Assembly: GCF_008801925.2 (NCBI RefSeq) | Contig: NZ_CP062803.1 | Coordinates: forward strand, 744,001 to 808,000 | From: Cupriavidus basilensis | GTDB lineage: Bacteria > Pseudomonadota > Gammaproteobacteria > Burkholderiales > Burkholderiaceae | Direction: 5' to 3' | DNA: 64,000 nucleotides | Shown: positions 58,399 through 61,469 of the stretch, one piece after another | How the letters are laid out: each line of letters opens with the position of its first letter | Position numbering within the stretch: the first letter of the stretch is position 1 | Translations under genes and position numbers: made by a program | Notes under the pieces: generated by a model | Told to the model about the DNA's origin: nothing | Seen by the model: the letters and a program-made list of their open reading frames with translations, nothing else | Database searches by the model: none

Positions 58399-59052
58399 TC
58401 AGGCGCGGCGCTGCGGCAGGATGGCGTCCAGGAAGGCGGTGGCGCGGAATTCCAGCTCGGCCACGTAGTCGTCCACGCGCCGGCGGAAGTAGCGCCAGAA
58501 GATCAGTGCCGGAATCGCGATGATCAGGCCGAAGGCGGTGTTATAGAGCGCCACCGAGATGCCATGTGCCAGCTGCTCGGGGCTGGCGCCGGCGCCACCC
58601 TGGCTGCCGAAGATCTCGATCATGCCGATCACGGTGCCCAGCAGGCCCATCAGCGGCGCCACCGAGGCGATCGTGCCGAGTGCGTTCAGGTAGCGCTCCA
58701 GCTCGTGCGCCACGGCGCGCCCGGCTTCCTCGACCACTTCCTTGGCGGCATCGCGGGAGGTATGGGGCTGCAGCACCACATGGCGCAGGCCAGCGGCCAG
58801 CACGCGGCCCAGCGGGGAGTTCTGCTCCAGCGTGTTGACCACCTCCGGCGTGGCGCGGCGCTGGTGCGCCACCGACAGGGCTTCGTCGTACAGCTTGGGC
58901 GGCAGCACCTTGCTGCGCTTCAGGCTGAGGAAACGCTCGACAATCAGCGCCAGGGCGATGACCGAGGCGAGCAACAAGGGCCAGATCGGCCAGCCGGCAG
59001 CTTGAATGATGGAAAACACGTGGAACCCCGAGTCAACGGCTTGTGTGCTCAT
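58399..59052 (-). CDS. exbB: ExbB/TolQ/MotA-type proton channel protein
   Basis: A 217-residue inner-membrane protein with three helices: IIQAAGWPIWPLLLASVIALALIVERF, IASVAPLMGLLGTVIGMIEIF (the family signature with the channel-lining Thr) and ALYNTAFGLIIAIPALIFWRYFRRRV. It partners ExbD. The ATG at 59052 has only a weak Shine-Dalgarno sequence. It is the first gene of the cluster exbB-exbD-lpxK-trm112-kdsB. Upstream, TGTTCGAAAA is repeated twice in tandem. Confidence 0.92.
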   Translation of the reverse strand: MSTQAVDSGFHVFSIIQAAGWPIWPLLLASVIALALIVERFLSLKRSKVLPPKLYDEALSVAHQRRATPEVVNTLEQNSPLGRVLAAGLRHVVLQPHTSRDAAKEVVEEAGRAVAHELERYLNALGTIASVAPLMGLLGTVIGMIEIFGSQGGAGASPEQLAHGISVALYNTAFGLIIAIPALIFWRYFRRRVDDYVAELEFRATAFLDAILPQRRA

Positions 59053-59104: not shown

Positions 59105-59212
59105 AATCAGGCGCCACTCTAACCCGCAGCACCGGGCGGGGCAAGACGCAGCGTCACGGTGTGTCTGCCGCGCATCGTGCGCGCAAGCCGCCGGAGGCGG
59201 CGACTGGCGGGA

Positions 59213-59945
59213 TGTCCACATGGAACAGGGACAGTGCTGTGGATGAATTGTGGACAGAGGGCTGACAAGGCGGTCAAGTCACTGATTGATAAGGAAAAAT
59301 TGTGATTCGCTTAAAAAATGGGCAGGCGGCGGGTGACGCGGACATCCTCCGGGGAGGCGCGAAACGCCCAAAACCGGAGTCCGGTCTATCCACATTAAAA
59401 CAGGACAGTGCTGTGGACCGTTTGTGGACAGACGCCTGAAAAGAAAGCTAAGTCATTGATTGGAAAGGCAGGTATACGTGGTGCCTAAATAATATGCAGG
59501 GCACGCCAGATGGGCTTCGCGGGGGCCTCCGACGCCTCGTGAATGAAAAAATCCCGCCATGTCTCCCCCTTTCCACATTCCGCCGGGACAGTCTTGTGGA
59601 CGGGTTGTGGAAAACTATCTGAGAAGCCACTTAAGTCATTGATTGAAAAGCGCTTCACACATGCTGATTAAAAAATGGGCAACGGCCATTTGCACGGTGT
59701 TTTCCAGTCTCCGTGCTCATGCACAGGACATGGCCACGCCATGTCGCGGTTAGGAGGCCTTGCGATCTCTTTTGGCCGCCGGATGGGCATTTCCGGCGGG
59801 CAGGAAATAGTTTTCCACAGAAAACGCGTTCTACCCAAGGTTGTCCAGAGTTCCTGTGGATAACTTTGTGAACAAGCCGGGGGCGCAGCCGGTAAGTGTT
59901 TGACGCATAAGGGGTTTGCTTACATTGCCTAAAAAATAAGACAGC
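59213..59945. repeat. Degenerate four-unit array with DnaA-box-like sequences
   Basis: Four related units fill most of the 1-kb gap between exbB and xseA. Each has a TCCACA or GTCCACA word, then a pair of TGTGGA words, then AAGTCATTGATTG or a variant, then an A-rich TTAAAAAATGGGCA-like end. TGTGGA-type words start at 59238, 59249, 59412, 59423, 59595, 59606 and 59855; TCCACA-type words lie at 59215, 59389, 59571 and 59814. AAGTCA-like words start at 59276, 59450, 59633 and 59894, so the spacing is 174, 183 and 261 bases. No open frame looks protein-coding. Confidence 0.8.
59855..59863. promoter_or_regulatory. Perfect DnaA box
   Basis: TGTGGATAA (complement TTATCCACA) matches the DnaA-box consensus exactly. 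It is the best of the boxes in the surrounding array. Near-matches with one difference include TGTGGATGA (59238-59246) and CTATCCACA (59386-59394). Confidence 0.6.
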
Positions 59946-60083
59946 CGAAAGCGCATAAGAATCAAAGGCTTGTGTCAAGTCATGCGGCTTTGCGGGGTTA
60001 TTGCCTCCCCCACCCCAAGAGACTTGACAGACCAGTTATGCTGTGGACATGTCAATTCCACGCCGCTTGCCCGGCTGTGCGCC

Positions 60084-61469
60084 ATGTCAGACCCGCTGAA
60101 CTTTTCGCGTGAAACCCAGCCTATGGCCCCTCCCGGGGCGCGTGAGGCGATTCCCGTCGGAGAGCTGAACCACGCGATCGCCCAGGTACTGGAACGTAGT
60201 TTCCCGCTGACCTGGGTCCGGGGCGAAATCTCAAATTTCACACGCGCCGCCAGCGGCCACTGGTATTTCTCGCTCAAGGACGCGCGCGCCCAGATCCGCT
60301 GCGTGATGTTCCGCGGGCGCAACCAGCATGTCGACTTCACGCCGCGCGAGGGCGAGGCGGTCGAGGTGCGGGCGCTCGTATCCATGTATGAGGCGCGCGG
60401 CGAGCTGCAGCTCGGCGTAGAGGGCATGCGTCGCGCCGGCCTTGGCAATCTGTACGAGGCATTCCTGCGCCTGAAGGAAAAGCTCTCGCAGGCCGGGCTG
60501 TTCGCGCCCGAGCGCAAGCGGCCGCTGCCGTTCCACGCCCGCAGCATTGGCGTGATCACCTCGCTGCAGGCGGCGGCCCTGCGCGACGTGATCAGCACGC
60601 TGCGCCGGCGTGCCCCGCATGTGCCCGTCGTGGTTTACCCGGTGCCGGTACAGGGCGCCGGCGCCGCGGCGAAGATCGCCGCCATGATCGACACCGCCAG
60701 CGAGCGCAACGAATGCGATGTGTTGATCCTGTGCCGCGGCGGCGGCAGCATCGAGGACTTGTGGTCGTTCAATGAGGAGAGCGTGGCGCAGGCCATTGCG
60801 CGCTGCGCTGTGCCGGTGGTCTCCGGCGTGGGCCACGAGACCGATTTCACCATCGCCGACTTCGTCGCCGACGTGCGCGCGCCCACGCCCACCGGCGCCG
60901 CCGAGCTGGTCAGCCCGGACCGCAGCCATATGCTGCTGCAAGCCAGCCGCGCGCGCGACGCGCTGGCCCAGTGCATGCAGCGCCAGCTCGACCGCCGCGC
61001 CCAGAACCTTGACTGGCTGGCCCGCCGCCTGCGCAGCCCGCAAGCGCAGCTGCAGGAGCGCCGCCTGCAGGTCGACAACCTCATGCGTCACCTGCGCTCT
61101 GCGCTGCGCGATACCGTGGCCGCCCAGCGGCACCGCCAGCAGGTGCTGGCCATGCGCTGGGCTGCCGGCCGCCCCGACCTGGCCCTCGCCCAGGCCGAGC
61201 TGCGCCGCACCGCGCTGCGCCTGCGCGACGCCACGCAGCGTCAGGTCGAGCGCGCCGGCCAGCGCTGGCAGCGTGCCGCCGGCACGCTCGAGGTGCTGGC
61301 GCCGCAGCGCACCCTGGAGCGCGGCTATGCTGTGCTGCTGGACCAGCGCGGACGTGCCTTGCGCTCACCGTCGGAGCTGCGCGCGGGCACCGTGATCGAA
61401 GTCCATCTGGCCGAAGGCGTGGCCGATGCCAGCCTCGCCAGCGTTCAGCCCCGGCTGGTGGAACGCTAA
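60084..61469 (+). CDS. xseA: Exodeoxyribonuclease VII large subunit
   Basis: XseA with XseB degrades single-stranded DNA to oligonucleotides. The ATG at 60084 ([10 protein letters not shown]) gives 461 residues; an ATG at 60123 is a possible alternative. The OB-fold N-terminal domain has [36 protein letters not shown], and the catalytic domain has [40 protein letters not shown] and [30 protein letters not shown] long helical region follows, ending [14 protein letters not shown] further TGTGGACAT word (60042-60050) lies just before the start. xseB is not in the window. Confidence 0.96.

Follow-up and report, generated by a model that had tools for sequence, protein, structure and literature searches.

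A putative DnaA-reactivating locus arranged as a tandem array between exbB and xseA in Cupriavidus basilensis

Introduction

The closest described relatives of the locus reported here are the DnaA-reactivating DARS elements and the datA locus of Escherichia coli. According to the DARS papers, boxes I and II set ADP-DnaA head to head, freeing ADP, and DARS2 requires IHF and Fis as well (PMC8682772, PMC4245941, PMC5742627); the consensus sequences given there are TAAnnnnTTGATW for IHF and GnnYAnnnnnTRnnC for Fis (PMC8682772, PMC4245941). At datA, a review describes the essential DnaA boxes as unidirectional and arranged with an IHF site (PMC5742627).

How widely are such elements distributed? 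One paper describes the DARS2 core as conserved specifically in gamma-proteobacteria related to E. coli (PMC4245941), and the later review speaks of conservation in beta- or gamma-proteobacteria (PMC5742627). DARS elements as a kind are already known, and the review already carries DARS2 conservation into the beta-proteobacteria. The DARS papers found in the open-access literature concern E. coli, and our searches of that literature turned up neither a DARS at xseA nor tandem DARS arrays nor the 26/11 box-spacing variant described below.

Results

We analysed a 64,000-nucleotide stretch of the C. basilensis main-chromosome contig C1 (hereafter the window; window coordinates are used throughout unless a contig is named). 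The gap between an ExbB/TolQ-type protein gene and xseA holds four repeated sets of candidate DnaA boxes, IHF-type sites and Fis-type sites. They are listed here with their neighbours; signed distances are from box II of the same unit, and paired spacings give boxes I to II and II to III in bp.

58399..59052, minus strand: left neighbour, ExbB/TolQ-type protein gene (TolQ scores best among NCBIfam models, though below its cut-off; exbB is the earlier note's name for the gene)
59212..59323, plus strand: unit 1, boxes at 26/11 spacing, with a weak IHF-type site and a Fis-type site
59212-59220, 59238-59246, 59249-59257: unit 1 boxes I (ATGTCCACA), II and III
59279-59291: unit 1 weak IHF-type site, one mismatch (+41); 59275-59287 matches with two mismatches (+37)
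59309-59323: unit 1 Fis-type site, perfect to the consensus (+71)
59386..59497, plus strand: unit 2, boxes at 26/11 spacing
59386-59394, 59412-59420, 59423-59431: unit 2 boxes I, II and III
59449-59461: unit 2 IHF consensus, perfect (+37)
59483-59497: unit 2 Fis-type site, perfect (+71)
59569..59680, plus strand: unit 3, boxes at 26/11 spacing
59569-59577, 59595-59603, 59606-59614: unit 3 boxes I, II and III
59632-59644: unit 3 IHF consensus, perfect (+37)
59666-59680: unit 3 Fis-type site, perfect (+71)
59811..59819, plus strand: extra DnaA box TTTTCCACA, upstream of unit 4
59841..59972, plus strand: unit 4, canonical DARS-type, boxes at 14/12 spacing
59841-59849, 59855-59863, 59867-59875: unit 4 boxes I (TTGTCCAGA, two mismatches), II (TTATCCACA, perfect) and III
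59893-59905: unit 4 degenerate direct IHF site, IHF(+), two mismatches (+38)
59927-59941: unit 4 degenerate Fis-type site, one mismatch (+72)
59960-59972: unit 4 inverted IHF site, one mismatch (+105)
60042..60047, plus strand: TGTGGA word directly before xseA
60084..61469, plus strand: right neighbour xseA, exodeoxyribonuclease VII large subunit (TIGR00237, 481 bits, cut-off 180)

An earlier note, written from the letters of this DNA, had described a four-unit array here with a perfect DnaA box at 59855-59863. Both points hold: a repeat search recovered an 87-nt unit three times, starting at 59208, 59382 and 59565, hence at steps of 174 and 183 nt, with copies 2 and 3 at 74% and 67% identity to copy 1, and the box is the TTATCCACA of unit 4. 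Unit 4 itself is too diverged for that search, and its box II (59855) lies 260 bp after box II of unit 3. In every unit box I is inverted relative to the direct boxes II and III; compared with the 14/12 geometry, units 1-3 have box I 12 bp farther out and box III 1 bp in. The conspicuous words of the array resolve into known kinds of site, namely DnaA boxes, the IHF consensus TAAGTCATTGATT and a Fis-type 15-mer GCTTAAAAAATGGGC: the word AAGTCATTGATTG, singled out by the note, is an IHF site, and TTAAAAAATGGGCA, of which the repeat search found two identical copies in the array, is part of the Fis-type 15-mer.

The note had also called for a comparison of DnaA-box matches with shuffled controls. 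Across the whole window the matches are present in chance numbers, with 20 TGTGGA words against 21.9 in shuffles and 11 matches to TTATNCACA with at most one mismatch against 10.1, but 12 of the 20 words fall within 59215-60047 and seven of the 11 matches within the array region. The signal is the clustering of words in the array, not their window-wide number. Perfect IHF matches (TAANNNNTTGATW) occur twice in the window, at the equivalent position of units 2 and 3, where 0.04 are expected per 64 kb.

In E. coli K-12, the cores of DARS1 (bioD-uvrB) and DARS2 (rppH-mutH) both have an inverted box I, 14 bp from box I to box II and 12 bp from box II to box III. Of the four units, only unit 4 shows this arrangement, units 1-3 departing from it at 26/11, and when the entire window, the two ends of C1 and the stretches of E. 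coli that hold DARS1, DARS2 and datA were scanned under relaxed criteria, nothing passed except DARS1, DARS2 and unit 4. DARS1 is the nearest in letters to unit 4 (TGTGGATAAC) and shares its core geometry; it differs in being a single copy and in having no IHF consensus (at most one mismatch) within 180 bp of its box II. With DARS2 the array shares more: besides the 14/12 core with its inverted box I, IHF-type sites, of which one is inverted and about 100 bp downstream (+95 there, +105 here), Fis-type sites, and a setting in non-coding DNA adjoining a DNA-repair gene. Downstream of the core, the IHF consensus is matched perfectly in units 2 and 3 and with one mismatch in units 1 (+41) and 4 (inverted, +105), and the Fis consensus, a loose one, perfectly in units 1-3 and with one mismatch in unit 4. 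The differences are that DARS2 is a single element, that its IHF and Fis sites stand in another order and at other distances, and that the array includes 26/11 units and lies between exbB and xseA. Because the E. coli distances (IHF at +79 and +95, Fis at +131) differ from those here (+37, +71 and +105), we class the locus as DARS-like and not as DARS2.

The genome encodes DnaA, an IhfA over the curated cut-off, and a Fis relative that scores 82.6 bits, below the curated 99.

The earlier note had proposed a DnaA-titrating locus analogous to datA, in which the boxes would hold DnaA or an IHF-assisted ATP-DnaA assembly would promote ATP hydrolysis. The array does resemble datA in clustering many DnaA boxes with IHF sites in non-coding DNA, and boxes II and III of units 1-3 stand head to tail, 11 bp apart, a distance also found in the oriC cluster of the same genome. 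Box orientation and spacing do not support the analogy: the two perfect boxes of E. coli datA are codirectional and flank the IHF site, and its stretch holds no 14/12 core, whereas each of the four units here has an inverted box I, no arrangement of the datA type was seen and unit 4 has the DARS geometry. The datA stretch does carry a one-mismatch inverted box 12 bp from one of its perfect boxes. We regard a datA-like role as unlikely.

Are the IHF and Fis sites placed, or do they merely occur? Across 120 units at 47 loci, IHF(+) sits at +37/38 in 66, the inverted IHF site, IHF(-), at +104-106 in 34, and the Fis-type site at +70-72 in 49. None of 100 shuffles put more than 3, 3 and 4 matches of the three patterns at any one offset, and reversed patterns gave 2, 8 and 6 matches in all. 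A less redundant set of 69 units from 31 hand-chosen loci gave 33, 20 and 30. The units of one array are related copies, so that independent cases are fewer than these unit counts, and the agreement between families on the positions is the stronger point.

The array has relatives throughout the genus: a similarity search matched 22 of the 23 other genus genomes searched, the one miss being a 54%-complete genome. In 19 of these 22, the top-scoring match was the unit 4 stretch (query 641/642 onward). The note had taken the unit nearest xseA for the most drifted, albeit with the best DnaA box; it is indeed diverged and has that box, but to describe it simply as the most drifted would be wrong, and no other unit shows the box spacing found across other beta-proteobacteria.

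Among 100 genomes of the family, DNA similarity matched 18, in 5 of 25 genera, its reach being limited because only the short sites are conserved, and a pattern search reached further. The canonical core, with at most two mismatches, was found in 357 of 399 genomes of the order, where the reversed control matched 2, and in 305 of 369 of the class, where it matched 1, the control counts being read from the result tables. C. basilensis itself has four matches to the core pattern, and C1 carries just one of them, unit 4. With the spacing left free, the core was found in 140 of 200 genomes (1 for the reversed control); among 150 of the matches listed, 119 had the DARS spacers (5,3) and 18 had others, while the remaining 13 had (5,1), though several of the 13 reread a site already counted.

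Cores adjacent to xseA occur in Cupriavidus, Ralstonia, Nitrosomonas, Thiobacillus and others, and many other xseA loci also have a TGTGGA word 165-212 bp past box II. We scored 80 named xseA loci, which are the best of 566 confirmed stretches and therefore a biased set. By the criteria used here a unit is present at 39 of these 80; the 41 misses among them are mainly Methylophilaceae, Polynucleobacter and relatives, Nitrosomonas and Nitrotoga, and some of these loci retain boxes II and III without box I. Units at 26/11 spacing occur at all 16 Cupriavidus and Ralstonia loci (L057-L072) and at none of the other 64 of these best 80, and the canonical terminal unit is kept at 15 of the 16. Judged by these alignments and pattern matches, the locus and its layout are conserved well beyond the genus. 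Nitrosomonas halophila (L102) has the most perfect TTATNCACA boxes of the best 80 of 566 xseA loci within 1.2 kb upstream of xseA, ten where the next has 2, with two canonical cores at -690 and -248.

Another family (f8) has tandem cores at this place too: in seven of its genomes, picked for having several matches, the stretch between the ExbB and XseA genes holds 2, 4, 5, 5, 5, 6 and 7 canonical cores (at most three mismatches, one strand), with core starts 116-309 bp apart and a SodB gene beyond, as in the window. Many of these units have IHF at +37/38; zero-mismatch Fis-type sites are fewer.

Taking every contig as circular, we place the array 803 kb from dnaA on a 4.57-Mb contig, or 17.6% of it; the dnaA reading frame occupies C1:1-1785 and may start before the contig does. 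Six other Cupriavidus genomes give values of 17.0, 18.5, 17.4, 13.6, 18.0 and 15.9% of the contig, so that in the seven the array stands at 0.27-0.37 of the replichore from dnaA (13.6-18.5% of the chromosome). It is 28.6% away, on the opposite side, in genome G104 (g40, perhaps Ralstonia) and 27.5, 31.3 and 38.2% away in three f8 genomes; in two further f8 genomes dnaA and the array are on separate contigs. E. coli DARS2 lies about 21% of the chromosome from oriC, similar to the 17.6% here, and datA about 10%, which counts further against a datA-like reading of an array at 13.6-18.5%.

Could the array be an origin, as the note had allowed, either a second one or a relic? Origins too contain DnaA boxes, IHF and Fis sites and A-rich stretches. 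The ends of C1, however, carry dnaA and a box cluster of different spacing, TCCACA-N11-TGTGGATAA-N2-TGTG, which resembles the array in having an inverted pair followed by a direct box, differs from it in its spacers (11 and 2 versus 5 and 3), fails the relaxed DARS scan and has no IHF consensus (at most one mismatch) within 180 bp of either TGTGGATAA. GC skew, which the note had named as a check, is small and mostly positive from 744 to 868 kb, with no sustained reversal at 803 kb, the distance of the array from dnaA. The C1 ends and the skew thus do not support an origin here, which we consider most improbable.

The note's remaining proposal, a family of small structured RNAs, draws on tandem conserved units whose inverted boxes could pair in RNA. 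Nothing in the whole window reaches an Rfam gathering score, folding of the four units on both strands (eight sequences) gave weak z-scores of -0.05 to -2.05, and conservation tracks DNA-binding words at fixed spacing. Rfam and folding therefore lend this proposal no support, and we hold it to be very improbable.

DARS-type cores also occur away from xseA. Arrays lie near priA in three genomes of family f10 (L178, L181, L182), forming a second class of DARS-type loci; one f8 genome (G030, L185) has a core pair between priA and hemE; and in two f8 genomes (L177, L180) a DARS-type core stands on each side of a uvrD-type helicase gene. These gene labels come from a family search of 30 protein readings, several of which were matchless and may not be genes. 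DNA-repair genes recur as neighbours: xseA, priA and the uvrD-type helicase gene, and in E. coli uvrB and mutH.

Among 30 matches from the order, one per genome, 17 are at xseA and 13 elsewhere. IHF(-) at +103-107 accompanies 10 of the 17 and only 2 of the 13, and for this reason we do not call the matches in all 357 genomes DARS. IHF(+) at +36-39 is rare in both groups (1 of 17, 1 of 13), as is Fis at +70-73 (1 of 17, 2 of 13). On this pattern evidence not every core match need be a DARS, and some of those away from xseA may be origins.

Alternatively, the gap might serve as a common promoter region through which DnaA, IHF and Fis control xseA (and exbB). The array lies between divergent genes with its last unit about 100-240 bp upstream of xseA, and similar cores adjoin priA and the uvrD-type gene, just as DARS1 and DARS2 adjoin uvrB and mutH. 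A replication locus accounts better for two to seven units as far as about 0.9 kb away, for their strict geometry and for their presence at several unrelated loci, and we think regulation of the neighbours a distinctly unlikely explanation, though promoter and replication roles could coexist.

Discussion

DARS is a better match to this locus than the options named in the earlier note, whose more general suggestion of a replication-control element made of DnaA boxes finds support in the box anatomy. We consider it likely that the gap is a main-chromosome control locus of a DARS2-like, DnaA-reactivating type, built as a tandem array, and DnaA reactivation appears its most likely function. Because the arrangement recurs in many related bacteria, the array is probably a switch that helps time chromosome replication. 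Several observations tell against a DARS2-like reading: three of the four units have 26/11 spacing, the outer layout is unlike that of E. coli DARS2, the Fis relative scores below its cut-off and the Fis consensus is loose, and a unit is present at only 39 of the best 80 of 566 xseA loci.

If the array acts as a DARS, ADP-DnaA would bind boxes I-III, with the inverted I/II pair setting two AAA+ domains head to head; IHF would bend the DNA and Fis would aid the complex. ADP would then leave, and the released apo-DnaA would take up ATP, raising ATP-DnaA before the next initiation. Why repeat the unit? Several consecutive units could give a higher local rate, and a position at 0.27-0.37 of the replichore from dnaA would set when the unit dose doubles, as the fork passes. 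Units 1-3 may have a lower activity, another regulation or a new use. Their box I is displaced by 12 bp, slightly more than one helical turn, so that head-to-head contact through a loop may be possible in the 26/11 units.

A broader scheme can be offered tentatively, and we would not be surprised to see it fail. The beta-proteobacteria may run DnaA recharging from tandem arrays, with a DARS unit amplified 2-7-fold at exbB-xseA (at priA in some lineages) and unit number serving as a tunable dose; in Cupriavidus and Ralstonia the extra units might have been rebuilt to 26/11 with IHF and Fis positions unchanged, making a new DnaA-remodelling class beside one DARS unit of ancestral type. Should the DARS reading hold, DnaA recharging by non-coding DNA would be in wide use among beta- and gamma-proteobacteria, and its anatomy would be sharp enough for pattern search. 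The arrays would provide a natural copy-number series relating DARS dose to initiation timing, and the 26/11 units raise the question of how strict the head-to-head geometry must be.

Further sites of this general kind were seen in C. basilensis and a near relative. Upstream of its own priA (L200, about 669-790), C. basilensis lacks a box I but has a box II, a weak box III and IHF at +106, which may be what is left of a second element. Its second large contig carries a palindromic double match to the core pattern (L171 4659-4695; G000:C2:686658-686694), and on that of a near relative TGTGGA-type words follow one another in a short tandem run at 12-bp intervals (G023:C2:2354530-2354583).
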